Positions 3,271-29,913 of a stretch of DNA of 39,568 bases are shown here, in pieces; within the stretch, counting starts at the first letter, position 1, and every line of letters starts with the position of its first letter. The DNA lies in NCBI GenBank assembly GCA_937960435.1, contig CALGPN010000022.1, forward strand, positions 1 to 39,568. Direction: 5' to 3'. A program made the translations under genes and the position numbers. A model generated the notes under the pieces. The model was not told where the DNA came from. It searched no databases and saw nothing but the letters and a program-made list of their open reading frames with translations. The DNA comes from an uncultured Desulfosoma sp. (lineage in GTDB: Bacteria; Desulfobacterota; Syntrophobacteria; Syntrophobacterales; DSM-9756).

Positions 3271-3786
3271 TTACGCCTTCGAGTTATCTATCCTCCTCTT
3301 GGCTAGGATCACCGCCCCGACGATTGCCGCAAGTAACAGCACGGACGCGATTTCGAACGGCAGCAAGTACTTGGTGAAAAGCATCCACCCCACCGCCTTC
3401 GTCGTCCCAAACGTCTCGTCCACCGCCGCACCGGCCACGGGCGCCCCGATTTTGTTCATCACCACAACCATGGCTACCATGAGTATTCCCACCACCACGG
3501 TGCCGGCCAACTGGATGAAAAAGACGTTCTTGGCCAGCTTGCCTTCTTTTTCCTCGATATTGAGCAGCATGATGACAAACAGGAACAACACCATGATGGC
3601 GCCCGCATAGACGATCAGCTGGAGCACCGCGATGAGATGGGCATTCAGGAGCGCATAGAGGCCCGCAAGAAAGGACATGGTCGCCACAAGACTCATGGCC
3701 GCCCGCACAGGCCGCTTTGTGGTCACCATCAGCAGGGCTGAAACCACCGCCCCCACGCAGAAGGCATAGAAGATCAGTAGTTCCAT
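3271..3786 (-). CDS. nuoJ: NADH-quinone oxidoreductase subunit J
   Basis: A 171-residue polytopic protein with the conserved NuoJ helix [20 protein letters not shown], which contains the pi-bulge region of helix TM3, and the typical [11 protein letters not shown] loop near residue 22. The ATG at 3786 lies upstream of the nuoI stop at 3774, a 13-bp overlap that implies coupled translation. Function: membrane-arm subunit next to the quinone module. Length is normal for the family. Confidence 0.95.
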
Positions 3787-4397
3787 TTGGAGTATATCCT
3801 TCTCACAAAATAAAGACGCGTCTTGACTTTCCCCTCCGGCCTCAGCAGCTGCTCCTTTTGGAACCGCAACAGGTTCCGATCCCCCTGCGCCAGCCCCTGG
3901 TACTCATCGCTCATGACGATGGCTTCCTTAGGGCAGACCTCCTCGCAATAGCCGCAGTAGACGCATCGGCCCAGATCCAACGTATAACGCGCCGGGTAAC
4001 GCTCCCCAGGAGCCTTTTCCGCCGCCACGATGGAAATGGCGTGAGCCGGGCACATCTTTTCGCACAACCCGCAGGCGACGCATTTTTCGGAGCCGTCCGC
4101 ATGGGCCACGAGCACCGGTCGTCCGCGGTAAGCCGAAGGCAGAGTCAGCTTCTCTTCCGGGTAGTAGACCGTGAAGACCTTGCGTTTCTTTCCGGCCGGC
4201 GGGAAGATGAAACCGAGCATGTTGATGAAAAAGTGCTTGCTGGTGATGACCAGCCCCCGCACGATCTCCGCCACATACAGCTTTTCCCACAGCGTGAGAT
4301 CCAGTCTTCGGCGTACCTTCTTGGCCTTCAGCACCGCCGCGGGAACGCCCACCTGCACGGAGTAGGGACTCTGCCCCAAACCTGTCGTTGTGCTCAT
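3774..4397 (-). CDS. nuoI: NADH-quinone oxidoreductase subunit I (2x[4Fe-4S])
   Basis: Contains two ferredoxin motifs, CVACGLCEKMCP and CVYCGYCEEVCP, which bind clusters N6a and N6b that pass electrons to NuoB. I chose the ATG at 4397, giving 207 residues starting MSTTTGLG, because it forms an ATGA overlap with the nuoH stop. A longer frame reaches 4466 but would lie deep inside nuoH. The N-terminal amphipathic helix and the ITSKHFFINMLG segment match NuoI anchoring to the membrane arm. Acts in the cytoplasmic connecting fragment of complex I. Confidence 0.95.
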   Translation of the reverse strand: MSTTTGLGQSPYSVQVGVPAAVLKAKKVRRRLDLTLWEKLYVAEIVRGLVITSKHFFINMLGFIFPPAGKKRKVFTVYYPEEKLTLPSAYRGRPVLVAHADGSEKCVACGLCEKMCPAHAISIVAAEKAPGERYPARYTLDLGRCVYCGYCEEVCPKEAIVMSDEYQGLAQGDRNLLRFQKEQLLRPEGKVKTRLYFVRRIYSKWNY

Positions 4398-5470
4398 AGC
4401 AGCAAAACCACCAGCCCGGTAATTGAGAGGTTGATGAGGGAAAGCGGCAGCAACATCTTCCAGCACATTCTCATGACCTGGTCATACCGGAAGCGCGGAA
4501 GCGTCCACCGGATGGTCATCTGCAGCCAGATGAAAAACGACACCTTGGCGAAGAAGACGGCAATGTTGACCGCCATGGCCAGGGCGGCGGCGCCGTTGGG
4601 CCCCGCAAATCCGCTGAACCAGGACAGAAGCATCGCGTCCGTGACAAAGGGGATGTGCCAGGCGCCGAAAAACAGGGTGGTCACGATGGCGCTGATGGTG
4701 ACCATCTCCAGGAATTCGGCCATCCAAAACATGACGAACTTCATGCCGCTATATTCGGTAAAGTAACCTGCCACCAACTCCGATTCGGCCTCTGGGATAT
4801 CGAAAGGAATGCGCTTGTTTTCGGCGATGGCGCACGTCATGTAGATGATGAACCCCACGGGTTGAAGGAAAATCCCCCAGCGGAAGAAGTTTTCCTGAGC
4901 GGCCCCGATGTCCGTGAGTCTGAGCGAGCCGTAAACGATGATGATACCGATGATGCTCAGGCCCATGGCCACTTCGTAGGAAAGCATCTGAGCCGAGGCG
5001 CGCAGCCCGCCCAGGAGCGACCAATTGCTCCGGGACGACCACCCGGCCAAAACCGTCCCGTACGTCGCCAACCCCGCCAAGGCGAACACGTAGAGAATGC
5101 CTACATCCAGATCGGCAATCACCAGGTTGATTTCACGCCCGAACAGTTCATACCGGCCACCGAAGGGAATAATGGCGAAAGCGGAGATGGCGGGCACCAA
5201 GGCAATGAACGGCGCCAGCGTGTGGAAAAATTTATTGGCGTTGGCCGGGACGAAATCTTCTTTCGTCAGAAGCTTCACGGCATCGGCAAGGGAATGAAAA
5301 AGCCCGATAGCCGTAAAACCCAAGATGTCCGCTCGGTTGGCGCCGATTCGGTCCTGCATCACGGCGCTCTGTTTCCGCTCCACCCACCCGAGAATCGGCG
5401 CAAAGACGCCGACATTGACGGTGAAGATGAAGACGATCTTGGCAAGGGATTCGATCAGATCTGCAAGCAT
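4394..5470 (-). CDS. nuoH: NADH-quinone oxidoreductase subunit H
   Basis: A 358-residue protein with eight or nine membrane helices. It contains the NuoH signatures WVERKQSAVMQDRIGANR near residue 30 and DIPEAESELVAGYFTEYSG near residue 220; the acidic residues of the latter lie in the loop lining the quinone chamber. It starts 2 bp after the nuoD stop and overlaps nuoI by 4 bp. Function: forms the quinone-binding cavity with NuoB and NuoD and couples quinone reduction to proton pumping. Confidence 0.96.
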   Translation of the reverse strand: MLADLIESLAKIVFIFTVNVGVFAPILGWVERKQSAVMQDRIGANRADILGFTAIGLFHSLADAVKLLTKEDFVPANANKFFHTLAPFIALVPAISAFAIIPFGGRYELFGREINLVIADLDVGILYVFALAGLATYGTVLAGWSSRSNWSLLGGLRASAQMLSYEVAMGLSIIGIIIVYGSLRLTDIGAAQENFFRWGIFLQPVGFIIYMTCAIAENKRIPFDIPEAESELVAGYFTEYSGMKFVMFWMAEFLEMVTISAIVTTLFFGAWHIPFVTDAMLLSWFSGFAGPNGAAALAMAVNIAVFFAKVSFFIWLQMTIRWTLPRFRYDQVMRMCWKMLLPLSLINLSITGLVVLLL

Positions 5471-5472
5471 GG

Positions 5473-6663
5473 CTATCTATCGCATTCTCCGCCGATCATG
5501 TTGATCATGTCGAATGTGGGGACGATATCGGCGAGCAGCCTGCCCTTGACCAATCTCGGCATGGCGGCGGTCAAGGCGAAGCACGGCGGCCTCACCCGGC
5601 ACTTGTACGGTTTCCCGCTGCCGTCGCTCACCAGATAAAATCCCAGCTCGCCGTTTCCGCCTTCCACGGCCAGATACACTTCCCCCGGAGGCGGCTTGAT
5701 GCCTTCGATGACCGTCTTGAAATGATAAATCAGGGAATCGATGCGGCTGTAAATCTTCTCCTTCGGCTCCATGCGCACCTGAGGCATGCGCACGTTGATG
5801 GGCCCGTCGGGCATCTGGGCCAGAGCCTGTTCCACGATTCGCATGCTCTGCTGGATTTCTTCCATGCGCACCAAGTACTTGTCGTAGTTGTCGCCCGTCT
5901 CCCCAATGGGCACTTCGAAATCCATGCGGTCGTAGACCAAGTACGGCTGCGCCTTGCGCACGTCGTACGGCACCCCGCAGGCCCTGAGGCACGGCCCCGT
6001 AAAACCGTAGGCAATGGCTTCTTCAGCGGAAATGGCGCCGACACCGCGTACCCGGTCGATAAAAATGCGGTTCTTGGTGAGCAGCTTGTCCACATCCTTC
6101 CAAAGGCGGCGCACTTCCTTAAACGTGTACTTGACTTTTTCCTCAAACCGCTCGGGTAGGTCGTTTTTGAGCCCCCCAATGCGGATGTAGTTGACGGTCA
6201 CACGGGCCCCGCACAGCGCTTCGATGAGGTCCCAGACCAGTTCCCGAGCTTCCACGAAATAGAGGAAGGCCGTGAAGGCGCCCAATTCTAGGCCGGCCGC
6301 CGCCACATTGGTCAGGTGATCGGAAAGACGCGACAATTCGCAGGCGATCACCCGCAGGTACTTGCACCGCTCTGGGACGTCGATCCCCAGGAGTTTTTCC
6401 ACGGCCAACGCATATCCTGTGTTGTTGATCAGAGGAGAGACGTAATTGAGCCGGTCCGTGTAGGGGATCACCTGCTGCCACGTGCTGTTTTCGCACATCT
6501 TTTCAAAACCTCGGTGGAGGTAGCCGATCTCCACGTCGAGGTCGATGATGGTCTCCCCCTCAAGGGTGGCGAGGAACTTCACCGTGCCATGGGTCACCGG
6601 GTGGGAGGGACCCATGTTGATGACCATGTGTTCCGTATGGAGGTCTTTGGAAATTTCAGACAT
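5473..6663 (-). CDS. nuoD: NADH-quinone oxidoreductase subunit D
   Basis: A 396-residue protein, normal for NuoD. It carries NMGPSHPVTHGTVKF near the start (the His/Tyr loop contacting quinone), the GYLHRGFEK motif, and a C-terminal FDMINMIGGECDR. The four nickel-site cysteines of the ancestral NiFe hydrogenase large subunit are absent, as expected for NuoD. nuoC and nuoD are separate genes here (25 bp apart), not the NuoCD fusion of enterobacteria. Function: quinone-reducing subunit of the peripheral arm. Confidence 0.96.
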   Translation of the reverse strand: MSEISKDLHTEHMVINMGPSHPVTHGTVKFLATLEGETIIDLDVEIGYLHRGFEKMCENSTWQQVIPYTDRLNYVSPLINNTGYALAVEKLLGIDVPERCKYLRVIACELSRLSDHLTNVAAAGLELGAFTAFLYFVEARELVWDLIEALCGARVTVNYIRIGGLKNDLPERFEEKVKYTFKEVRRLWKDVDKLLTKNRIFIDRVRGVGAISAEEAIAYGFTGPCLRACGVPYDVRKAQPYLVYDRMDFEVPIGETGDNYDKYLVRMEEIQQSMRIVEQALAQMPDGPINVRMPQVRMEPKEKIYSRIDSLIYHFKTVIEGIKPPPGEVYLAVEGGNGELGFYLVSDGSGKPYKCRVRPPCFALTAAMPRLVKGRLLADIVPTFDMINMIGGECDR

Positions 6664-6688
6664 GGCTCAGCACATACCCGTTCGGATG

Positions 6689-7207
6689 TTAGTTGACGGG
6701 GCCGATCAAGGGCTGCCTCTTTTTCAGCGGGTAGTCCTTGCGCAACGGATGACCCTCAAAACCTTCGTAAAGCAAGATACGGCGGAGATTGGGATGCCCG
6801 ATGAATTTCACCCCGTACATGTCGTAGGCTTCCCGCTCGAACCAGTCGGCGGCCACCCATACGGACACCACGGAATCAATGGTCGGGTCCGATTCGGGCA
6901 CGAGGGCCTTGAGGCGAACCCTCCGGTTGTGCGGCAGGGAATAGAGGTGATAGACCACTTCGAACCGCGGGTCACGACCCAGATAGTCTACTGCGGTGAG
7001 GTCCATCATGAAGTTGTACAGAAGGTCCGGGTCGTCCCGAAGAAACAAGCAGATGTCGCGGATCTTGTCCTTCTTGACAACGGCCGTATCGTCGCCGCGG
7101 TAACTGTGGGTCCCGACGATGTCGTCCGGGAATTTCTCCATCAGCTTCTTGAGGGTGACGCTTTCCTTCATGAGCCCCATGTCCTCTTCTGTCGAAGGCT
7201 TCAGCAC
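6689..7207 (-). CDS. nuoC: NADH-quinone oxidoreductase subunit C
   Basis: A 172-residue member of the 30-kDa complex I subunit family. The C-terminal signature WFEREAYDMYGVKFIGHPN and the closing GHPLRKDYPL are both present. The ATG at 7207 overlaps the nuoB stop by 7 bp. A later in-frame Met (MGLMKESVT) is a possible alternative start. Function: scaffold protein of the quinone module, without its own cofactor. Confidence 0.95.
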   Translation of the reverse strand: MLKPSTEEDMGLMKESVTLKKLMEKFPDDIVGTHSYRGDDTAVVKKDKIRDICLFLRDDPDLLYNFMMDLTAVDYLGRDPRFEVVYHLYSLPHNRRVRLKALVPESDPTIDSVVSVWVAADWFEREAYDMYGVKFIGHPNLRRILLYEGFEGHPLRKDYPLKKRQPLIGPVN

Positions 7208-7770
7208 CGACTCACCGGCGCCTCACCCCGCGGCCAATCCGTCCACCGTTCCTGTTTGACCTTCTGCTGGAGCAAAAGCAGGCCGTCCAGCACCATTTCC
7301 GGGCGCGGCGGACACCCGGGAACGTAAATGTCTACTGGGATGAGGGTATCGATGCCCTGCACCACGGAGTAATTGTCATAGAAACCGCCGGAGACGGCGC
7401 ATACCCCGAAGGCAAACACCCATTTGGGCTCGGCCATCTGGTTGTAGACCTTCACCAGGATGGGGGCCTGCTTGTGGCTGATGGTGCCCACCACCATGAG
7501 GAGATCGGCCTGCCGGGGGGAAAATCGGGGAAGGGCGGCGCCGAAACGGTCCAAGTCGTAACGCGGGCCGGCCACGGACATGAATTCCATGCCGCAACAG
7601 GCCGTGACAAACGGGTAAAGGAAAAACGAATATTTGCGGGCCCAGTTGACGGCCGCCTCCAGACGGGTCAGGATGACGCTGCCGTCCAAAAGCCGTTCCG
7701 GACCGGCGTCCTCGGCTTTCCCGCCCATGAGATTGCGGGTCACCGTCCACCGTGAGAGCTTCAATCCCAT
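7201..7770 (-). CDS. nuoB: NADH-quinone oxidoreductase subunit B ([4Fe-4S] cluster N2)
   Basis: Carries the N2 cluster ligands: the tandem cysteines in VTACCGMEFM, the Cys in FGVCAVSGG, and the Cys in VPGCPPRPE. I chose the ATG at 7770, giving 189 residues starting MGLKLSRW, with an AAGGGG-type ribosome site about 8 nt upstream and a 10-bp overlap with nuoA. A GTG at 7791 would add seven residues and overlap nuoA further. Function: terminal electron carrier to quinone. Confidence 0.95.
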   Translation of the reverse strand: MGLKLSRWTVTRNLMGGKAEDAGPERLLDGSVILTRLEAAVNWARKYSFFLYPFVTACCGMEFMSVAGPRYDLDRFGAALPRFSPRQADLLMVVGTISHKQAPILVKVYNQMAEPKWVFAFGVCAVSGGFYDNYSVVQGIDTLIPVDIYVPGCPPRPEMVLDGLLLLQQKVKQERWTDWPRGEAPVSRC

Positions 7771-20882: not shown

Positions 20883-21662
20883 TTAGGATGTGCCTTCACG
20901 GGTTTTGAGGTAGAGGCGCAGCCGCGCCAAATCGAAGTAGGCTTCGGCCAGCCCCAGCTTTAAGCAGGTGATGAACATCTCCCCGTCCTCCACGCCGATC
21001 TGCTGCGCCATGTACTCTTTGACCAACTGCAGACAGGCCAAATTGGCGGGAAGACCGTTCCAGAGGTTCCAGCTTCGGAAGTGGACACTGAAGTGGAGCT
21101 TGCCGTACTTGATGGCCGTGTCCACCCCGCGCAGGCACTGGGTTGTTCCCGGTTCGTTTTTGTTGAACGCGTTGGAGATGATCCGCGTTCGGATTGCCTT
21201 CCCTGTGGCGCGATCCGTCACGCGGATCACCTCCTCGTAGTCCACCGATTCATCGTAGAAAAGAAGGCTTTCGGGACGTCCCACCGTCATGTAGCAGTGT
21301 TTGGTGCCGGGGCCGTGGGTGCGGTAATAGTCGATGACCCACTCAATCTGCCACGCCAGGTCCTGCCCGTAGGTATAGTGCTCGCCAGGCTGGGCCACAT
21401 CGGTCATGTAATAGGGGAGGTATTTTTCCGCGTAACCCGGCTCCACCGGGTTGGGAATGCCCACCCCCGGCGGGATGTCCGGCTCCAAAGGGCGCGTCCC
21501 GGGATGCGTAATCTGGGCCGAAACGAAATCCAGTTCCCAGCGCTTGGTCGGCGTGCTGCCTTTGTCCACCTTGTATTCCCGGCCCTCCTCCACGGCCTTG
21601 CGCACGAGTTGGTACCACAAATCCGGAATGTCCCGCGCCGTCACAAAGACCGCCTTCAGCAT
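20883..21662 (-). CDS. Thymidylate-synthase-family protein (archaeal-type, altered active site)
   Basis: A 259-residue protein. The C-terminal half aligns by eye to ThyA: TQCLRGVDTAIKYGKLHF places a Cys at the catalytic position, FRSWNLWNGLPANLACLQL matches the RSxD...GLPFN region, and EYMAQQIGVEDGEM follows. Differences from E. coli ThyA: the residue at the Asp169 position reads as Asn (RSWN), and the His-x-Tyr pair near 207-209 is not evident (LGLAEAYFD instead). The N-terminal part differs from classic ThyA, as in short archaeal forms. It could be a divergent dTMP synthase or a related pyrimidine-modifying enzyme. Ribosome site GGAAGGGC. Confidence 0.7.
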   Translation of the reverse strand: MLKAVFVTARDIPDLWYQLVRKAVEEGREYKVDKGSTPTKRWELDFVSAQITHPGTRPLEPDIPPGVGIPNPVEPGYAEKYLPYYMTDVAQPGEHYTYGQDLAWQIEWVIDYYRTHGPGTKHCYMTVGRPESLLFYDESVDYEEVIRVTDRATGKAIRTRIISNAFNKNEPGTTQCLRGVDTAIKYGKLHFSVHFRSWNLWNGLPANLACLQLVKEYMAQQIGVEDGEMFITCLKLGLAEAYFDLARLRLYLKTREGTS

Positions 21663-21843: not shown

Positions 21844-23115
21844 CTAAAAACGCCACGAGAAGCCGAAGTCCAGGCTGTTTTCACTCAAAGTCGATTTCAG
21901 CCGTACCGGTTGCCCGGTGATGTCCGTTCCCGTCTCATCGATACTCTTTTCGAAGGCATGGACAAACCCGGCATGCACCGAAAAACGCGACGTGAAATCA
22001 TACCCGACACCCATGGTGAGATGATGTTCCACGATGGCCGGAAATCCAACGATCCGGAAGGTTTCATAGTAATAGGTCGGCATGGTCTTTCCTTGGACGG
22101 AAACCAGCAGCGGCCCGTTGAACCCGTCGTGGGTGTTCAAAGGGTTTTTTCCGTAACAGTATCCGGCACGGAGAGTAAGCTTGGGGAGTGGTTTATACTG
22201 GGCGCCGAAACCCAAAACCCACTGGTCATCCCAGTCGAAATCCTCATAACCGTTGGCTTCGGACCAATTGAGCCACTTCACGTCCGCTTCCAGAAGCAAT
22301 TTGTCATTGAAACGGTAGGCGACGCCAAAGGCGACCTGATGCGGGGATTCCAATTTCAGTCGATCCAGGCTGCCGTCCCCGTCGAAGTCGGCCACATCGT
22401 CATGATTGACGTTTTGAGGCGAGGTGTAGCTGAGCCCGAGAGCGATGTTATCCGTCGCTTTGTAGATCGTGCCCAGTTGGATGCCGATCCCATAGCCGGA
22501 CGAGGATCCCTCACGGAGGTCCAAAGTAGCGTAATCCACGTGGAGCGCCATGCCGAAGGAAACTTTTTCAAAAGGCTGAAAGGCCACGGCCGGGGCGAAT
22601 TTCATAATGGCCAGTTCGGTGTAGGCCCCGGCGACCAGAGGGAAAGAACCCATGGGTCCAAAATTGTAAAAGCCTGCTTGGTCCACCGCCGTGCCCTTGT
22701 AGTCAACGCCCAGTCCGGAAACGCCATAGGCGGACAGGCCGAAGCGCCAAAAAGGCGGCCGATCCGTGATCGGTACCGAAAGACCGATGGCCGGAATAGG
22801 GTACACTTTTTCTTCGCTATCCGCGGCAATGGCCGTGCCCGATGCGGGAAAGCTGATTCGGGTGTCCACCTTGGGCATGAAAAGCGTGCCGCCGAAATTC
22901 ATCTCAGAAGAAGGACAATAGGGCCCAAAGCACATGGCCGCAGGGTTCACGAAAACGGCGCTGATGGCATCCTGGGGGGCGGCCACACCCACACCGCCCA
23001 TGGCGCGAGCCACCGGTCCGACGGCGATCAGGTTATCCCCGTTGGTGGCGGAAGCTGATCCTGCCGTTGCCAAAATTCCCAGAACAATGACGAACGAAAT
23101 CAGCATCTTTTTCAT
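21844..23115 (-). CDS. FadL/OmpP1/TodX-type outer-membrane transport protein
   Basis: A 423-residue protein from the ATG at 23115 (MKKMLISFVIVLG) with ribosome site AAAGGAG. Cleavable signal peptide ending near SASA. The mature N-terminus NGDNLIAVGPVARAMGGVGVA is followed by the DAISAVFVNPAAM segment typical of the FadL plug. Then come many alternating amphipathic strands and a C-terminal aromatic residue (DFGFSWRF) as expected for a beta-barrel. Function: uptake of hydrophobic compounds such as long-chain fatty acids or hydrocarbons across the outer membrane. The substrate is unknown. Confidence 0.9.
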   Translation of the reverse strand: MKKMLISFVIVLGILATAGSASATNGDNLIAVGPVARAMGGVGVAAPQDAISAVFVNPAAMCFGPYCPSSEMNFGGTLFMPKVDTRISFPASGTAIAADSEEKVYPIPAIGLSVPITDRPPFWRFGLSAYGVSGLGVDYKGTAVDQAGFYNFGPMGSFPLVAGAYTELAIMKFAPAVAFQPFEKVSFGMALHVDYATLDLREGSSSGYGIGIQLGTIYKATDNIALGLSYTSPQNVNHDDVADFDGDGSLDRLKLESPHQVAFGVAYRFNDKLLLEADVKWLNWSEANGYEDFDWDDQWVLGFGAQYKPLPKLTLRAGYCYGKNPLNTHDGFNGPLLVSVQGKTMPTYYYETFRIVGFPAIVEHHLTMGVGYDFTSRFSVHAGFVHAFEKSIDETGTDITGQPVRLKSTLSENSLDFGFSWRF

Positions 23116-23408: not shown

Positions 23409-24671
23409 CTAGGAAACGACCAGGGCGTCGGCGACCATGGAGGTGAGAAACTGGACGTTGAGACCCAGGCCGTAATGTCGGTTCAAGTCGCTCAGCTGAG
23501 TATGGCAGTTCTCGCAGGCCGTCGCCAGCACCGTCGCCCCCGTCTTCTGGACTTGTTCGGCTTTGACCTTGGCCGATTTCATGCGAAAATCCAACGTGTC
23601 CTCCCCCAAGGCCACCAAACCGCCCCCGCCGCCGCAGCAGTAATTGTAGCGCGGATCGGGCGCCATCTCTCGAAAATCGTCCGTAAGGTGCTGCAAGATA
23701 AAGCGCGGCTCTTCCAAGACGCCGCCGTTTCTCGCAATTTGGCAGGGGTCGTGATAGGTCACGACCTGCCCCTCGAACGCCTTTTTACTCACTCGGATGC
23801 GCCCTTCGCGCAGATACCGCGCATGAACTTCGGTCACGGAAGAAACCTTGAAGGGCTGGGTGCCCGAAAGCTGCTTCATCACCCGATAGGCCGTGCCGCA
23901 CTCGCAGATGCACACCTCCTTGACCTTGAGCCTCAGGGCTTCATTGACGATGCGATCGAGGATCAGCTTGGTTCGGGTGGGGTCCCCCACAAAGGCGCCG
24001 AAATTGACGGCTTCGAAGAAACTCAGGGTCCAGTTTTCTCCGGCGGCGTTAAAGACCGCGGCGGCCGGAATAATGGAATGGGCCCCCGCCAAGGCCACAT
24101 AAAGGAGCTCGGCCCCTTCCACATCCACGGGAATGACCGTCTTGCCTTCGGCCTCCAGCTTCCATTTTTCGACAACCTTTTGTTCCAGGTTTTTAACGCC
24201 TTGGAGGAAGCCCTCCTTGAAAAATTCCAAGGAGCGACCCTTTTCGATGGACGTGTCTGCAAGAAGCGTCAGGATTTCGGGTTCCGCATGAGCGCCCACC
24301 AAAAGCAGTTTGGCAATGGACATGAGCATTTGCGTGTCAATACCAAAAGGACAATAGACCATGCAGCGCCGACATCCCGTGCACGAATAGGCCGCGTCGT
24401 AAAGCTCCTGCAGGGCCGCTTCGGTCAGTTCCTTGGCCTCCCCGTACGAAGGCCACAACTTCCCTTGGCCTTTAAAGTGCTTCTTATAAATACGCCGAAC
24501 GATTTCCGCGCGATAGGCGGCGATGTAGCGGGCCTGAGGCATGGATTGATACACATGACAGGCGGTGGTGCATACCCCGCACCGCGTGCATGTTTCCAAA
24601 TAATACACCATGGCCCGGTTGAGTTTCGTCTGGAAAAGTTTGAGGAGATCCTCTCTCATTTGCTGGTCCAT
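23409..24671 (-). CDS. HdrD/DsrK-like iron-sulfur protein with CCG domains
   Basis: A 420-residue protein from the ATG at 24671 (MDQQMREDLLKLF); a longer open frame to 24908 lies over the upstream gene and is not credible. Two [4Fe-4S] motifs: CTRCGVCTTACHVYQ near residue 27 and CTGCRRCMVYCPFG near 96. The C-terminal half has a partial CCG-like segment (CICECGTAYR) and a full one (YNYCCGGGGGL, then CENCH), the cysteine-rich domain that binds the special cubane cluster in HdrB/HdrD and DsrK. It starts 2 bp after the NarI-like gene. Expected role: cytoplasmic face of a quinone-linked disulfide or persulfide redox complex. Confidence 0.9.
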   Translation of the reverse strand: MDQQMREDLLKLFQTKLNRAMVYYLETCTRCGVCTTACHVYQSMPQARYIAAYRAEIVRRIYKKHFKGQGKLWPSYGEAKELTEAALQELYDAAYSCTGCRRCMVYCPFGIDTQMLMSIAKLLLVGAHAEPEILTLLADTSIEKGRSLEFFKEGFLQGVKNLEQKVVEKWKLEAEGKTVIPVDVEGAELLYVALAGAHSIIPAAAVFNAAGENWTLSFFEAVNFGAFVGDPTRTKLILDRIVNEALRLKVKEVCICECGTAYRVMKQLSGTQPFKVSSVTEVHARYLREGRIRVSKKAFEGQVVTYHDPCQIARNGGVLEEPRFILQHLTDDFREMAPDPRYNYCCGGGGGLVALGEDTLDFRMKSAKVKAEQVQKTGATVLATACENCHTQLSDLNRHYGLGLNVQFLTSMVADALVVS

Positions 24672-24673
24672 GG

Positions 24674-25384
24674 CTAACCTCGCCTTAAGAGGTTCATGGG
24701 CAGGGCCAAGAAGGTGTGCATCATTTTTGTGAACGGGAAAACCATGAGGAACAGATTGGCGAAAAAGACGTGGAGAACCAACATGAAGGCATGGCCCGAA
24801 TAGAGGATTTCGTCCGGCACGAAAGGCTTGAGCATAACCAGGCTCCAGAGGTAGGCCCGGTAGGCGCTTACCCCCATGACGTCGTAGTCGTACCAGCGGC
24901 GGGCCCAATCCATCTGACTGCCGAAGATGATCGTGAGGAAAAGGAGGATCAGGAGGTAATAGTCTTCAGGAACGGAAAGGTCTCGCACGGGAGCATGAAA
25001 CCGACGGAAAAACAAATACAGCACGGACACGGCCGCCACCAAGCCCACAAAGCCTCTACCGAGAAAAACCTCGTGAGGCACCAGTTGAAAAATCGGCCAG
25101 TCGCCGAACAGCTCCAAATGCCCGATAATGAGCAAGAGCACCGCGACGTGGAAAACGGCCAGAAAGAACCACAAGACAGGGCTATGCCGAAAAATCGACG
25201 GCATGAGAAACGTGTCCCCTACGGCATAAAGCCAAGCCGGCTCTTTTTTGGGAAAAATCTGCAATGTGGTCGGATGCGCAGGTCGGCGGGCCGTCTGCAC
25301 GAGACGCCACACCGTGCCCAAAACAAAAACGGCAAAAGCCGCGTACACCATGGGCACCAAGACCAAGTAATAGGCCGTCTGCAT
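24674..25384 (-). CDS. NarI/DsrM-like membrane cytochrome b subunit
   Basis: 236 residues from the ATG at 25384 (MQTAYYLVLVPMVYAAF). Five or so membrane helices; histidines in FHVAVLLLIIGHLELFG and YSGHAFMLVLHVFFANLF are placed as heme-b ligands in NarI/DsrM-type subunits. It is coupled to the HdrD-like gene downstream. Expected to exchange electrons between menaquinone and the iron-sulfur subunit. An in-frame start at 25402 would add six residues. Confidence 0.88.
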   Translation of the reverse strand: MQTAYYLVLVPMVYAAFAVFVLGTVWRLVQTARRPAHPTTLQIFPKKEPAWLYAVGDTFLMPSIFRHSPVLWFFLAVFHVAVLLLIIGHLELFGDWPIFQLVPHEVFLGRGFVGLVAAVSVLYLFFRRFHAPVRDLSVPEDYYLLILLFLTIIFGSQMDWARRWYDYDVMGVSAYRAYLWSLVMLKPFVPDEILYSGHAFMLVLHVFFANLFLMVFPFTKMMHTFLALPMNLLRRG

Positions 25385-25493
25385 GAATTCCCCCCGGCTC
25401 ACGGAAAGCGAACGCTGCGGACCTTAGGCCCGGCTCACGGCCCCCGCCGATTGGGCAGGGGCCCCTGACCGGACGTCAAGATCTTGCCGCAGC

Positions 25494-25736
25494 TCACACT
25501 TTGCGTCTGATGAATATCCGGATAATCCCGTTTTCTTGGATCGTCTCCACGATCTCATTGCCGCTGGTGCGGGCCCACGCCGGAAAATCCGTTAAGGACC
25601 CCGGATCCGTCGTCTGTGCCTCCAGAATCTGGCCCACGGCCACCTCCTTGATCCCCTTGCTCACTTTCACCACCGGCATGGGACACGGAAGCCCCTTCAA
25701 ATCCATCACCTTGTCTGCATGAATGGCCTCGCTCAT
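25494..25736 (-). CDS. tusA: TusA-family sulfurtransferase
   Basis: An 80-residue protein with the family motif LKGLPCPMPVVK (CPxP, catalytic Cys near residue 18) and a C-terminal IIRIFIRRK strand. Strong ribosome site AAAGGAGG before the ATG at 25736. TusA proteins carry persulfide sulfur between partners, for tRNA thiolation, molybdenum cofactor work or dissimilatory sulfur metabolism. Beside dsrE2 and an HdrD-like gene the dissimilatory role is more likely; this is context inference. Confidence 0.93.
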   Translation of the reverse strand: MSEAIHADKVMDLKGLPCPMPVVKVSKGIKEVAVGQILEAQTTDPGSLTDFPAWARTSGNEIVETIQENGIIRIFIRRKV

Positions 25737-25806
25737 GACTTGTCCTCCTTTCTCCGTTGCGGGAACATGTCCCCCTTTTCCCCCTCGGCCATCAAGGCCA
25801 GGAAGG

Positions 25807-26364
25807 TTAGATGAAAAGCTGAATGCGGCTGTCCATGGCCTCTTCGAGAAATTTGGCTACGCCGCAAAAATCCATGGCCGGATATTGGATCATTTCCTCC
25901 CGCTTGAACCCCATGAGTTCCATGGAAAGCTCACAAACATAAATCTGCACGCCCAATTCGCCTGCCAAAGCGATCATCTGGTCCAGACTCGCTACGTTCT
26001 TCTGCTTCATCAGGTTCTTCATCATCGCCGTGCCCAAGCCGCCCATGTTCATCTTGGACAACTTCACCGAACAGGCCCCTTTGGGCAGCATGGTGCCGAA
26101 CATCTTGCCCATGAAATCTTTGTCTTCCACCTTTTTGGCCGGATCGCGCAGAATCGGCGTGGCCCAAAAGGTAAAGAACATGACCACGTCCATCCCCATG
26201 GCTACGGCGCCGGTAGCGATAATGAACGCCGCCAAAGCGCGGTCCAAATCGCCGCTGAAAACAACCATGGAAAGTTTGTTGGACGGCACCCTTCTTTCGA
26301 TCCCCTCCAACTTCGCGCGCAAGTCCGCGACCTGCTTTTCCAACGTTGCCAACTCGTGTGTCAT
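25807..26364 (-). CDS. DsrE2-type DsrE/DsrF-like sulfur carrier
   Basis: 185 residues from the ATG at 26364 (MTHELATLEKQ) with ribosome site AAAGGAGG. An N-terminal coiled stretch (residues 3-25) is followed by the DsrE/F/H-like fold: MVVFSGDLDRALAAFIIATGA, the hydrophobic VVMFFTFWATPIL, and the conserved Cys in IYVCELSMELMG. Length and the hydrophobic helices match the membrane-associated DsrE2 group, which is typically linked to tusA in sulfur metabolizers. The longer frame from 26418 would cross the operator and is not favoured. Confidence 0.88.
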   Translation of the reverse strand: MTHELATLEKQVADLRAKLEGIERRVPSNKLSMVVFSGDLDRALAAFIIATGAVAMGMDVVMFFTFWATPILRDPAKKVEDKDFMGKMFGTMLPKGACSVKLSKMNMGGLGTAMMKNLMKQKNVASLDQMIALAGELGVQIYVCELSMELMGFKREEMIQYPAMDFCGVAKFLEEAMDSRIQLFI

Positions 26365-26391
26365 GACAGCCTCCTTTCTTGGGCCGATTTT

Positions 26392-26406
26392 GTTAACACT
26401 ATGAAC
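26392..26406. promoter_or_regulatory. Candidate MarR operator before dsrE2
   Basis: The word GTTAACACTATGAAC, identical but inverted relative to the copy at the marR start, lies 28 bp upstream of the dsrE2 ATG. Its dyad (TTTGT-TAAC-ACTAT) is weaker than the other copy. Confidence 0.5.
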
Positions 26407-26427
26407 CATTGAGGCCAAAAAATTTTT

Positions 26428-26904
26428 TTAGAACATCTTTTGTTTCACCGCTTCCATGCTGGTGCGTAAACATTCCAGAGCTGTGAGAACTTGCTTGCGC
26501 TCTTCCGGGCCCATTTCCAGGAGGATCATCTGGTGGAGGGTTCCGATGAAGGCGGCGATCTCATCGCAGGCGACCCGGCCCTTAGGGGTGAGACTGATGA
26601 GCTTGATGCGCGCGTCCGCCGGATCATCGATTCGAGCCACCAAGCCTTTTTCCAGAAGACCCGAAATGATTTTTGTGATGCGGCTTTTGGCCACGTCCAT
26701 TTTTTGGGCGATCCCTTTGACGGTCAGGTACTTCTCATCGCGAAAGAGCATGAGGCAGCGCAGTTCGGCGTCAGGAAGGCGAAATTTTTTTGAAAGATGA
26801 GCCGCCCGCGTCTCACAGCAATGCACCACCTCCTCCATGAGGGTTTGAAAGCGCCGCACTTGATACCCAAAATAGTCGTCGGATCGATTGGCCTTTTCGT
26901 TCAT
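26428..26904 (-). CDS. MarR-family transcriptional regulator
   Basis: 158 residues from the ATG at 26904 (MNEKANRSDDYF). The winged helix is clear: KGIAQKMDVAKSRITKIISGLLEKGLVARIDDPADARIKLISLTPKG, covering about residues 66-112, with the DxRxxxxxLT wing motif as DARIKLISLT. A Cys pair (HCCETRAAHL) near residue 28 could serve redox or persulfide sensing, though this is speculation. It sits 63 bp upstream of dsrE2 on the same strand, with candidate operators at its own start and before dsrE2. Confidence 0.93.
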   Translation of the reverse strand: MNEKANRSDDYFGYQVRRFQTLMEEVVHCCETRAAHLSKKFRLPDAELRCLMLFRDEKYLTVKGIAQKMDVAKSRITKIISGLLEKGLVARIDDPADARIKLISLTPKGRVACDEIAAFIGTLHQMILLEMGPEERKQVLTALECLRTSMEAVKQKMF

Positions 26905-26917
26905 AGTGTTAACTATA
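26899..26917. promoter_or_regulatory. Candidate MarR autoregulatory operator
   Basis: On the minus strand ATAGT-TAAC-ACTAT forms a 5-4-5 inverted repeat that overlaps the marR ATG (26902-26904). The embedded 15-mer recurs inverted at 26392-26406. This placement fits MarR repressing its own gene and the downstream sulfur genes. Confidence 0.55.
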
Positions 26918-27113
26918 AAACCCGAATTTTTCGGCGGGTCAAGAAAAAAATTCAGCCGCCTTAAAAAATGAGGCGCTGAAGGCACCCTGGGGACATATCG
27001 CCCGATGTGGCCTTTGCGTCCTGGCGCGCTTGGCTAAAGCTTTTGAATAAAGTGACTCCAAAAGTCCTTGGCCCCTCCTTGGAGCGCGGTCCGAGGGATG
27101 ATTGCCTCAAAGG

Positions 27114-27141
27114 TTGTCTTGCTCTTTATTTTTGTTATCCT
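27114..27141 (+). promoter_or_regulatory. Possible promoter of the coiled-coil gene
   Basis: TTGTCT (27114-27119), a 16-bp spacer and TATCCT (27136-27141) end 12 bp before the chosen ATG. Only a moderate match, and it sits very close to the start codon. Confidence 0.25.
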
Positions 27142-27153
27142 TTGGCCAAAAGA

Positions 27154-28341
27154 ATGATGATGAATCCCCGGTCAGAGGAAAATCCCCAAATGGCTTCCGT
27201 TGCTTTGATGAAAAAACTCAGTGCCTTAGATCCACCGGTTCGAGACGCCCTTCTTGCCGTGATGGAGGAAGTGGAAAGTCGCACACGGGCGGCGACGGAG
27301 TCCGTAACGCGGTCGGCATTCGATGAGCTGACCAACGTGGTCAAGAGATTCGCAGAGGCCCAAGAGTTTACCGCAAAATCCATACAAACCCTCGCCGACG
27401 CTCAAGTGCGGACTGAAGAACGCCTCGCCGCCTTCAGCCAACAAGTCGGAAGCCTTGCCGAAGCCCAGATCCGAAACGAGCAGAGCCTCAGCGCCCTAAC
27501 CGAACGCGTCGACCGCCTCACCCAGCACGTCGAACGCCTCACCGAAGCCCAGGAACGCACCGAACGGCAGCTGGAAAAATTGGCCCAGGCCCAGGAACAA
27601 ACCGAAAGACGTCTCGAAGAACTCGCCCAGGCCCAGCAACGCACCGAACGGCGTCTCGAAGAACTGGCCCAAGCCCAGGCCCTCACCGAACAGCGCCTCG
27701 GCGCCCTGACCGAACGTGTCGACCGCCTCACCGAACGTGTCGACCGCCTCGCCGAAGCTCAGCAACGCACCGAACGGCGTCTCGAAGAACTGGCCCAAGC
27801 CCAGGCCCTTACCGAACAGCGCCTCAGCGCCCTGACCGAACGTGTCGACCGCCTCACCGAAGCCCAGGAAAGGACGGAAAAACGCTTGGACGAACTCGCC
27901 GCCGCCCAAATTGCCCTGCAAGAAACCGTCGAACGGCTAGGGTTTGGCTTGGGAGCCGTCCGCGACCAGGTCGGGGGGCTTTCCCGCACCATGGCCTATG
28001 CCTTGGAAAACGAAGCGTACCGGCATCTACCGAATTTTCTCAAAGAAAGGTACAACATCGACCTCCTCGAGCGTCTTGTGCGGACGGAAATCGCCGGCAG
28101 GGAAGTGAACTTCTTCGGCCGTGTGCGAAAAGACGGGCAAGACGGGCATTTGGTCGGCGAATCCGTGCTTCGGCTTGACGACCGTGCCAAGCTGGCCCAG
28201 CTCCAGGCCACGGTGGACGCAATGGAAGAGGCCCTCGGCGGTCCCGTAATTCCCGTGATCGTCACCCATTTCGCCAAGAAAGAGGTCCTGGAAAAAGCCC
28301 AGCAGCGGGGGATCCTGGTCATTCAAAGTTTTGAGTGGTGA
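27154..28341 (+). CDS. Long coiled-coil protein with a nuclease-like C-terminal domain (DUF3782-like)
   Basis: About 395 residues from the ATG at 27154; the ATG at 27007 extends the frame but adds a segment unlike the rest. Residues 20-110 are helical. About 110-245 consist of repeated units of the type AQAQxxTERRLEEL and LTERVDRL, a long parallel coiled coil. The last 110 or so residues (from NEAYRHLPNFLKERY to IQSFEW) form a globular domain with EVNFFGRVRKDG, VGESVLRLDD and IPVIVTHFAKKEV, resembling PD-(D/E)XK-like domains in DUF3782-type proteins. Function unknown. The repeats look recently amplified at DNA level. Confidence 0.8.
   Translation: MMMNPRSEENPQMASVALMKKLSALDPPVRDALLAVMEEVESRTRAATESVTRSAFDELTNVVKRFAEAQEFTAKSIQTLADAQVRTEERLAAFSQQVGSLAEAQIRNEQSLSALTERVDRLTQHVERLTEAQERTERQLEKLAQAQEQTERRLEELAQAQQRTERRLEELAQAQALTEQRLGALTERVDRLTERVDRLAEAQQRTERRLEELAQAQALTEQRLSALTERVDRLTEAQERTEKRLDELAAAQIALQETVERLGFGLGAVRDQVGGLSRTMAYALENEAYRHLPNFLKERYNIDLLERLVRTEIAGREVNFFGRVRKDGQDGHLVGESVLRLDDRAKLAQLQATVDAMEEALGGPVIPVIVTHFAKKEVLEKAQQRGILVIQSFEW
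27634..27861 (+). repeat. Tandem in-frame repeat inside the coiled-coil gene
   Basis: The stretch 27634-27735 recurs at 27760-27861 with about two differences in 102 bp, a 126-bp period (three 42-bp, 14-residue units). Further diverged 42-bp and 21-bp units occur from about 27500 to 27890. Confidence 0.85.
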
Positions 28342-28373: not shown

Positions 28374-29198
28374 ATGGCCGGCTTGGCATCCGATGCCGCC
28401 GTTCGGGCGGTGTATTTCGTAGGGGTACTGACCCTGATGGCGGTGTCGGAGGCGGTCTTCCCCCGCCGCAGCCGCGTTCAGCCGAGAACCGGACGATGGT
28501 TCGCCAATCTCGCCATGATCGGTTTAGGCAACATCCTCACCCGCGCGGCATCCCCCGTGGTGCCGGTGGGCGTGGCCGCCCTGGCGGCGGAACGAGGCTG
28601 GGGCCTTTTCAATGCGGTCGATTTTCCTCCCGGCGTCGCTTTCGCCCTTGCCCTGATTCTTCTCGACGGGCTCATCTATTTCCAGCATGTCCTCACGCAC
28701 GCGCTGCCCACCCTGTGGCGCCTCCACATGGTTCACCACGCGGACTTGGACCTGGACTGCACGACAGGCGTGCGTTTTCACCCCGTAGAAATTTTCCTCT
28801 CGGCCGTTCTCAAGAGTGCCGCCGTCGCCGCCCTGGGCGCTCCCGTGAAAGCGGTCGTGGCTTTCGAAATCCTGCTCAACAGCTGCAGCGTCTTTAATCA
28901 CGCCAACGTGAAGCTGCCCTTCCTTTTGGATCGTTTCGTCCGGACCCTGCTCGTCACCCCCGATATGCACCGCGTGCACCATTCGGTCATCATCCGGGAA
29001 ACGCACAGCAATTTCGGTTTCTGCCTGTCCTGGTGGGATCGATTGTTCGGCACCTACAAAGCACAGCCGGAAAAGGGGCACGACGGCATGACCATCGGTC
29101 TGAGCCAGTTCCGGAACCCCGCACAGCTCGGCTTCAGGCACCTGCTTATCCTGCCGATCGTGGGGGATCCCGGCCGGCAACCCATCAACCGGCACTGA
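28374..29198 (+). CDS. Sterol desaturase / fatty-acid hydroxylase superfamily protein
   Basis: 274 residues from the ATG at 28374 ([13 protein letters not shown]) with ribosome site GAGAGGG. Four membrane helices flank the His-box set of the superfamily: [20 protein letters not shown] and MHRVHHS, which bind a di-iron center in characterised members. These enzymes use O2 to hydroxylate or desaturate lipids, which is notable in a probable anaerobe. Its 3' end overlaps the SOD gene tail-to-tail by 14 bp. Confidence 0.92.
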
Positions 29199-29913
29199 GG
29201 TTTTTCGCCGCAAAGGACCAATCGATAAGGTGGTTCAGGACGGCGTGCACATAGTCCGTTCGGCGGTTTTGATAATCCAGGTAATAGGCGTGTTCCCACA
29301 CGTCCACGGTCAGGAGAGGCTTTTGGCCGTGGGCGATGGGGGTGTCGGCGTTGGACGTCTGGACAATCTTGAGCCCCCCGGCATGTTCCACGAGCCACGC
29401 CCAGCCGCTTCCGAAAACCCCCACAGCCGCCGCAAGGAACTGCTCCATGAAGGCTTGAGGACTGCCGAAGTCCTTGATGATCCTTTGCGTCAGGGCCACG
29501 TCGGGTTCTCCCCCGCCCCCGGGTCGCAGGGAACGCCAGTAAAACGTATGGTTCCACACCTGGGCCGCATTGTTGAAAATGGCTTGATGTTCCGCCTTGC
29601 CGGCTGTGGCCGTGATGATTTCATCAAGGCTCATGGTTGCAAACGGCGACCCTTGGACCAGCTCCTTGAGTTTCGTTGCATAGCCTTGATGGTGCTTGCC
29701 GTAGTGGAAAGACACCGTCTTGCCAGAGATGTGGGGCTCCAAAGCATTTTCCGGATACGGCAGCGACGGCACCTCCCAAGCCGGGCCTCCGGAGTCCTTC
29801 TTCCCCCATGCCGGATTCAGAAACCCCGGGTGGGCCAGAACCGCCGCCCCGACCATCGCGCCTTGGACGAACGCTCGCCGGGTGATCCCGCCTTCTCCAT
29901 GTGCTCTCTCCAT
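29185..29913 (-). CDS. Tat-exported iron-type superoxide dismutase
   Basis: 242 residues with ribosome site AAGGAGGT. The N-terminus has a twin-arginine signal: TRRAFVQG followed by hydrophobic [12 protein letters not shown], so the enzyme is exported folded. The Fe/Mn SOD body starts at [12 protein letters not shown]. Metal ligands: His in FHYGKHHQG, His in WNHTFYW, Asp and His in [13 protein letters not shown]. The [11 protein letters not shown] and TSNADTP segments are of the Fe-SOD type. Function: removes superoxide in the periplasm. Convergent overlap of 14 bp with the sterol-desaturase gene. Confidence 0.95.

Follow-up and report, generated by a model that had tools for sequence, protein, structure and literature searches.

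What does an iron–sulfur protein of the HdrD/DsrK type act on when its gene lies beside the genes of two sulfur carriers? This question was raised by contig CALGPN010000022.1 of an uncultured Desulfosoma sp. (assembly GCA_937960435.1), of which positions 1 to 39,568 were analysed (39,568 nucleotides; hereafter the window). A preliminary description had placed five genes on one strand at 23409–26904, and this was confirmed by the open reading frames and their Pfam matches. The genes for a MarR regulator, a DsrE2-type protein, TusA, a NarI/DsrM-like cytochrome b and a DsrK/HdrD-like protein were all on the minus strand, with likely start positions at 26904, 26364, 25736, 25384 and 24671, respectively:

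26428..26904, minus strand: marR, MarR-family regulator, 158 amino acids from an ATG inside a palindrome (PF01047/PF12802)
25807..26364, minus strand: dsrE2B-type gene for a sulfur-carrier-like protein of 185 amino acids, soluble DsrE fold, one invariant Cys (PF13686, 1e-49)
25494..25736, minus strand: tusA, TusA-family persulfide carrier with a CPMP motif (Cys18) (PF01206, 2e-20)
24674..25384, minus strand: dsrM-like gene for a NarI-family di-haem cytochrome b of 236 amino acids (PF02665)
23409..24671, minus strand: dsrK/hdrD-like gene for an iron–sulfur protein of 420 amino acids with two 4Fe-4S motifs and one CCG motif (Fer4_8 and CCG), adjoining dsrM

The last four genes are referred to as the cassette. 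Pfam E-values were 6e-10 for MarR, 2.5e-14 for the cytochrome (Nitrate_red_gam, PF02665), 1e-12 for Fer4_8 and 7e-12 for CCG. Two of the labels given previously were partly retained. "DsrE2" applied at the Pfam level (PF13686), but the protein missed the NCBIfam DsrE2 equivalog NF047629 (74 vs 210 bits). For "HdrD/DsrK type", the expected domains were present, but the equivalog cut-offs for DsrK (NF045796; 254 bits against 400, compared with 757 bits for the true DsrK of the host), TmcB (218 against 735) and HmcF (197 against 750) were all missed. The window TusA passed the PF01206 cut-off and contained the Cys of the CPxP motif, as expected for the TusA-fold family, and missed the E. coli TusA equivalog (41 vs 78 bits).

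Homologous loci (80) were gathered from named genomes by similarity to the DsrK-like protein alone, and their flanks were then searched with the remaining window proteins. The order dsrE2-tusA-dsrM-dsrK was kept in 56 of the 59 loci with sufficient flank. Since the loci had been picked by DsrK similarity alone, a chance association is excluded, and the gene order, the conservation of which beyond this strain had been in question, was kept across phyla. The gap between dsrM and dsrK had a median of 2 bp, and TusA and DsrE2 were linked to the cassette as strictly as the redox pair. MarR was present in 40 of the 41 testable loci of the clade that carries it. One rearranged locus (L063, positions 3569–7254) had a tusA match between dsrM and dsrK and fragmented dsrE2 and dsrM matches. 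His residues at the dsrM 204 and 211 positions were not seen there, and this may be a decaying copy.

The cassette, present in Thermodesulfobacteriota and in other phyla, was found in Syntrophobacteraceae, Desulfobacterales, Desulfovibrionaceae, Desulfomonilaceae and Desulfarculaceae; further hosts were genomes labelled Spirochaetota, Clostridia, Eisenbacteria and Myxococcota. Strict cut-offs were applied to whole-genome samples, so that the counts are lower bounds: at least 18 of 395 genomes of the host phylum, at least 23 of 296 Spirochaetota and, in one clostridial class, at least 1 of 391 genomes, this one being the centre genome of the sample. No cassette match was obtained from two further genomes belonging to the genus of the host, indicating that the trait is patchy. 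No plasmid-borne cassette was found, just a 29% paralogue. The surroundings varied. In a second Spirochaetota group, the bare four genes were located amid housekeeping genes, and by inspection the cassette followed an operon resembling rnf in one spirochaete genome and was divergent from a Psr/Phs-like molybdoenzyme operon in another. Some Desulfobacterota loci had additional neighbours encoding rhodanese-metallo-beta-lactamase proteins (five loci), ATP sulfurylase (three loci) or two additional small DsrE-like proteins (about six loci). These neighbours assign the module to sulfur metabolism and do not fix its direction. No description of the dsrE2-tusA-dsrM-dsrK cassette was found in the literature searched, outside of which most subscription papers lay. 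The cassette is thus apparently an undescribed conserved gene set of anaerobic bacteria.

The DsrK-like proteins of the cassette formed a single group in two maximum-likelihood trees (support 100/100 and 100/99, stem about 0.95), set apart in both from true DsrK and from the remaining paralogues. As to whether the HdrD/NarI pair falls into a known complex, its DsrK-like subunit thus forms a clade of its own, with 26–29% identity to DsrK subunits. The trees did not contain the archaeal and bacterial DsrMK-only sequences (PMC10504309), which is the main gap in the placement of this clade. Two more DsrK-like paralogues, scoring about 245 bits, occurred in a Desulfomonile genome (L102 and L108), where a weak DsrM-like match adjoined them and neither TusA nor DsrE2 was present. 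These looked like another undescribed group of the DsrMK type.

Of 44 genomes with the cassette, 17 gave no DsrA match, and every Spirochaetota, Clostridia and Eisenbacteria genome tested was among them. DsrC had no match in 13 of 33 cassette-bearing genomes and in 13 of 20 further Spirochaetota. Some of these genomes are incomplete metagenome-assembled genomes, yet the pattern tracked lineages. Since many cassette genomes lacked DsrAB and DsrC, sulfite reduction is not a necessary role of the cassette, nor is DsrC a necessary substrate. The cluster had previously been called distinct from DsrMKJOP on the grounds that it contains no gene for DsrC or siroheme sulfite reductase. That observation was correct for the cluster, but elsewhere in its genome, on other contigs, the host does carry dsrAB and dsrC as well as a true dsrK; the distinction is now more strongly supported by the many cassette genomes without DsrAB and DsrC.

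Residue conservation was counted over 41 to 81 homologues, depending on the protein. In the DsrK-like protein, the eight Cys of the two 4Fe-4S motifs and the CCG motif (C310, C345-C346, C386xxC389) were 98–100% kept (n = 81). The haem ligands H85, H95, H211 and H229 of the DsrM-like protein (numbered from a GTG at 25402) were 98–100% conserved and aligned with H56, H66, H187 and H205 of E. coli NarI. TusA and the DsrE2-type protein each had exactly one invariant Cys, Cys18 of the CPMP motif (100% in 71 homologues) and Cys162 (100% in 65 homologues), respectively. The AlphaFold model of the DsrE2-type protein (predicted local distance difference test, pLDDT, 88) matched Swol_2425 best (3pnx, TMt 0.92), followed by SSO1126/DsrE2B (2qs7). 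The model thus predicts a soluble DsrE fold, unlike the two-helix membrane DsrE2, and assignment to the Allochromatium-type DsrE2 with two transmembrane helices was rejected on this fold and the NF047629 score. The model of the DsrK-like protein (pLDDT 89) had the fold of EtfD, its closest PDB match (9ojn), and of HdrB.

Our preferred reading is a membrane- or quinone-linked sulfane-sulfur oxidoreductase that acts on sulfur bound to TusA and DsrE2 and is under sulfane-sulfur control, and we give it a probability of about 0.5. The cassette would encode a stand-alone membrane redox module, the subunits of which may form a complex. Its di-haem cytochrome b would trade electrons with a membrane pool (menaquinone in the host), and these would pass through the two 4Fe-4S clusters of the DsrK-like subunit to a catalytic cluster bound by the CCG motif. 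Sulfane sulfur would be carried on Cys18 of TusA and the Cys of the DsrE2-type protein, in the form of a persulfide or bridging the two carriers in a mixed di- or trisulfide, and would be split reductively to sulfide at the CCG cluster, or undergo the reverse reaction. The two carriers would thereby replace the DsrC-trisulfide of DsrMKJOP or the CoM-S-S-CoB of HdrDE. The conserved NarI haem ligands, the cluster ligands of the DsrK type, the TusA and DsrE2 Cys and the match of the CCG protein to HdrB-type disulfide reductases argue for this reading, as do the gene order kept over several phyla, the bare four-gene form in Spirochaetota, the cassette genomes without DsrA or DsrC and the sulfur-related neighbours of some loci, among them the Psr/Phs-like operon. 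A flow of electrons linking the quinone pool to a TusA/DsrE2 persulfide, as proposed in the preliminary description, would be consistent with all conserved residues and with the thiol-type regulators.

The regulators pointed to sulfane sulfur as well. Three regulatory elements were assigned in the window:

26899..26913, minus strand: putative MarR operator 1, GTTAACACTATGAAC, an exact copy of the palindrome, sharing positions with both the -10 element and the start codon of marR
26392..26406, plus strand: putative MarR operator 2 in the gap between marR and dsrE2, an identical 15-mer, inverted
26912..26942, minus strand: promoter-like TTGACC-N19-TATAGT of marR, read from the sequence and 40+ homologous upstream regions

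In 44 loci, the start of marR carried a 15-bp palindrome (GTTCA-N5-TGAAC), and a similar one preceded dsrE2 in about 20 other loci. Across all loci, 83 palindrome sites were counted (19 after shuffling), 64 of them at these two positions. At other loci the promoter had the form TTGACA-N16/17-TATAGT; the spacer of 19 in the window is non-optimal, and this promoter was not listed by a consensus promoter scan. Since the palindrome overlaps both the -10 element and the marR start codon, the transcript is probably leaderless. In MarR, a Cys-Cys pair and a third Cys were invariant (41 homologues). Known MarR-family sensors of sulfane sulfur, which act through Cys, are MgrA, OhrR, MexR and MarR (PMC11211675), and we propose the cassette MarR as a putative sulfane-sulfur sensor on the basis of its sequence. 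It would repress marR and dsrE2-dsrK through the two palindromes and release the DNA once its Cys react with sulfane sulfur. The palindromes of marR would also lend themselves to an inducible reporter. In the other clade, an ArsR regulator with conserved Cys took the place of MarR (LC and C-x3-C common to 9 of 11), with SqrR and BigR as its closest solved relatives. Two unrelated regulators of the thiol type on one cassette are an independent hint at sulfane sulfur as the signal. Palindromes of the ATATC/GATAT type upstream of the ArsR gene (L067, L069, L072, L074 and L080) were suggestive of an ArsR operator.

Several observations weigh against the proposed oxidoreductase. The reduction of a persulfide by menaquinol is uphill unless the proton motive force helps. 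In the tested Spirochaetota and Clostridia, the MenD equivalog was not found and MqnA/D were weak or absent, yet UbiA-type prenyltransferases were present in all genomes tested, which makes the quinone partner uncertain in these lineages; a firm claim of quinone-less spirochaetes was dropped because of these prenyltransferases. The Cys of the cassette ArsR were about one helical turn off the SqrR positions, and owing to this shift the protein is not claimed as a plain SqrR/BigR orthologue. The one DsrE2B that has been studied, from Metallosphaera, was unreactive with persulfide, polysulfide and tetrathionate donors (PMC4175335). As to direction, given the proposed chemistry, reduction (of sulfane sulfur or polysulfide, or as an electron sink) had slightly better than even odds and oxidation slightly worse than even odds. 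Reduction suits the fermentative hosts and oxidation suits the energetics.

Among the other explanations, the oxidation or detoxification of sulfane sulfur is unlikely. Here, TusA/DsrE2 persulfide would be converted to a disulfide or trisulfide with electrons passing to the quinone pool, and the role would be to protect the cell or to feed sulfur oxidation or disproportionation. Menaquinone as the acceptor would be energetically easier, the regulators are of the sulfane-sulfur type, some loci encode the rhodanese-metallo-beta-lactamase protein and ATP sulfurylase, and in sulfur oxidisers, TusA-DsrE modules bring in the sulfur that is to be oxidised (PMC4175335, PMC13293266). However, the trait is patchy across the genus and phylum of the host, and for the Spirochaetota and Clostridia hosts, which had no convincing menaquinone-pathway equivalog, an electron sink looks the likelier benefit.

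The cassette could also encode a second DsrMK (DsrM2K2-like) that acts on DsrC-trisulfide, with TusA and DsrE2 supplying sulfur to DsrC. The top NCBIfam match of the DsrK-like protein was the DsrK hidden Markov model (HMM), the host has both DsrC and DsrAB, and additional dsrMK copies are known (PMC6018796). In addition, a basal DsrMK-only clade that includes Deltaproteobacteria and Clostridia has been described, with 7 of 74 assemblies lacking DsrAB (PMC10504309). The absence of DsrC from the cassette genomes counted above, the score far below the DsrK cut-off and the separate clade nevertheless make this explanation rather improbable. We consider it very unlikely that the cassette is a general electron conduit across the membrane, as Tmc and Hmc are, with TusA and DsrE2 as accessory donors of sulfur for cofactors or tRNA. 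The HMMs of TmcB/TmcC and HmcF/HmcE did match weakly, but the TmcB and HmcF cut-offs were missed 3- to 4-fold, the surroundings of the cassette showed no cytochrome c gene and the carriers are linked as strictly as the redox pair. Membership in Tmc/Hmc was rejected on these scores and because no gene for a cytochrome c was seen in the cluster.

Returning to the proposed oxidoreductase, CCG-type membrane reductases are known for two substrates, CoM-S-S-CoB and DsrC-trisulfide. We tentatively suggest, with considerable doubt, that a mixed di- or trisulfide of TusA and DsrE2B is the "heterodisulfide" of an energy-linked DsrMK/HdrDE-like membrane enzyme that operates without DsrC and DsrAB in several phyla. 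If true, this would be a third natural heterodisulfide system. A DsrC-independent cassette with its own carriers would add a substrate class and a route for the respiration or disposal of sulfane sulfur in anaerobes, and it offers a concrete candidate enzyme for the redox outlet of the DsrE2B/TusA pair in these organisms.

The host assembly comprises 3.0 Mb in 61 contigs. Judged by its gene content, the host is a sulfate reducer; it carries MqnA/D-type genes, and its closest named relative is Desulfacinum infernum (89% identity of the DsrK-like protein). Its two remaining TusA matches are located in a selenium cluster with YedE (the selenium equivalog TIGR04112), SelD and YedF, which leaves the window tusA as the sole tusA of the host outside that cluster. 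A second DsrE2-family gene was located directly behind an ArsR regulator on another contig (C25; L134, 2689–3517), with no tusA or dsrMK nearby. A further gene was a frequent neighbour downstream of the cassette:

21844..23115, minus strand: OMPP1/FadL-type outer-membrane barrel (PF03349, 4e-25)

Among the 51 MarR-clade loci that could be tested, 26 had it no more than 600 bp downstream of dsrK, often at less than 100 bp. A promoter or operator belonging to the barrel gene itself was not adopted, as no palindrome preceded it at the scan threshold used, so that its link to the cassette is one of neighbourhood; it is probably a part of the system and not essential. An S8/FadL transport role was dropped, as the single paper found offered no basis for it. 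The window also contained a coiled-coil protein gene divergent from marR (27007–28341, plus strand), with no clear Pfam family and with near-identical tandem repeats of 42 and 126 bp (95% match for the 126-bp unit), an Fe-superoxide dismutase gene (29185–29913, minus strand) with a twin-arginine-like N-terminus, possibly exported, and a thymidylate-synthase-like gene (20883–21662, minus strand), for which the nearest model was the methanogen-type TIGR03283, below its cut-off.

The cassette shares features with five known systems. EtfD, of the EtfD/EMO-type CCG quinone reductases, is the nearest PDB fold to the DsrK-like subunit (9ojn), whereas the cassette has no etfAB and encodes its cytochrome b in a separate gene. 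Like the YTD cluster with type II DsrEFH of cable bacteria and sulfur disproportionators (PMC13293266, PMC12998232), it combines TusA with a DsrE-fold carrier in Desulfobacterota. The YTD cluster, in contrast, lacks a dsrMK pair and carries yeeE/yedE together with a DsrEFH trimer, whereas the cassette has a DsrE2B of the PF13686 type. Membership in YTD was rejected, as the operon contained no yeeE/yedE and the YedE-TusA genes of the host belong to the selenium cluster. In the sHdr system (rhd-tusA-dsrE2/dsrE3) of Acidithiobacillus, Metallosphaera and Hyphomicrobium, TusA/DsrE carriers are likewise tied to a heterodisulfide-reductase-like enzyme (PMC4175335), and its repressors sense sulfane sulfur (PMC12423496), as is proposed for the regulators found with the cassette. 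That enzyme is the soluble HdrC1B1A-hyp-HdrC2B2, while the cassette encodes a membrane cytochrome b and a single CCG protein. The set hdrC1B1A-hyp-hdrC2B2 was not present, and neither hdrA nor lipoate genes were seen, so that membership in sHdr was rejected. For the DsrMK-only clade, the accessible part of its description states no link to tusA or dsrE2 (PMC10504309). With DsrMK(JOP), the trisulfide reductase of sulfate respiration, the cassette shares a NarI-type di-haem cytochrome b and an adjoining CCG iron–sulfur subunit with the same layout of cluster ligands. It differs in having no JOP, dsrC or dsrAB (dsrJ, dsrO and dsrP were not seen among the window open reading frames or in the neighbourhoods of the 80 loci), in having tusA and dsrE2 as fixed partners and in occurring in genomes without DsrC. 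On these points and the missed DsrK cut-off, membership in DsrMKJOP was rejected. HdrDE of methanogens with cytochromes reduces CoM-S-S-CoB with methanophenazine and has a two-subunit architecture of a cytochrome b and a CCG disulfide-type reductase. The cassette is like it in this architecture only, and the CCG fold of the DsrK-like protein matches HdrB. Unlike HdrDE, the cassette is bacterial and encodes a NarI-type cytochrome, one complete CCG motif and two carrier proteins in place of CoM and CoB.

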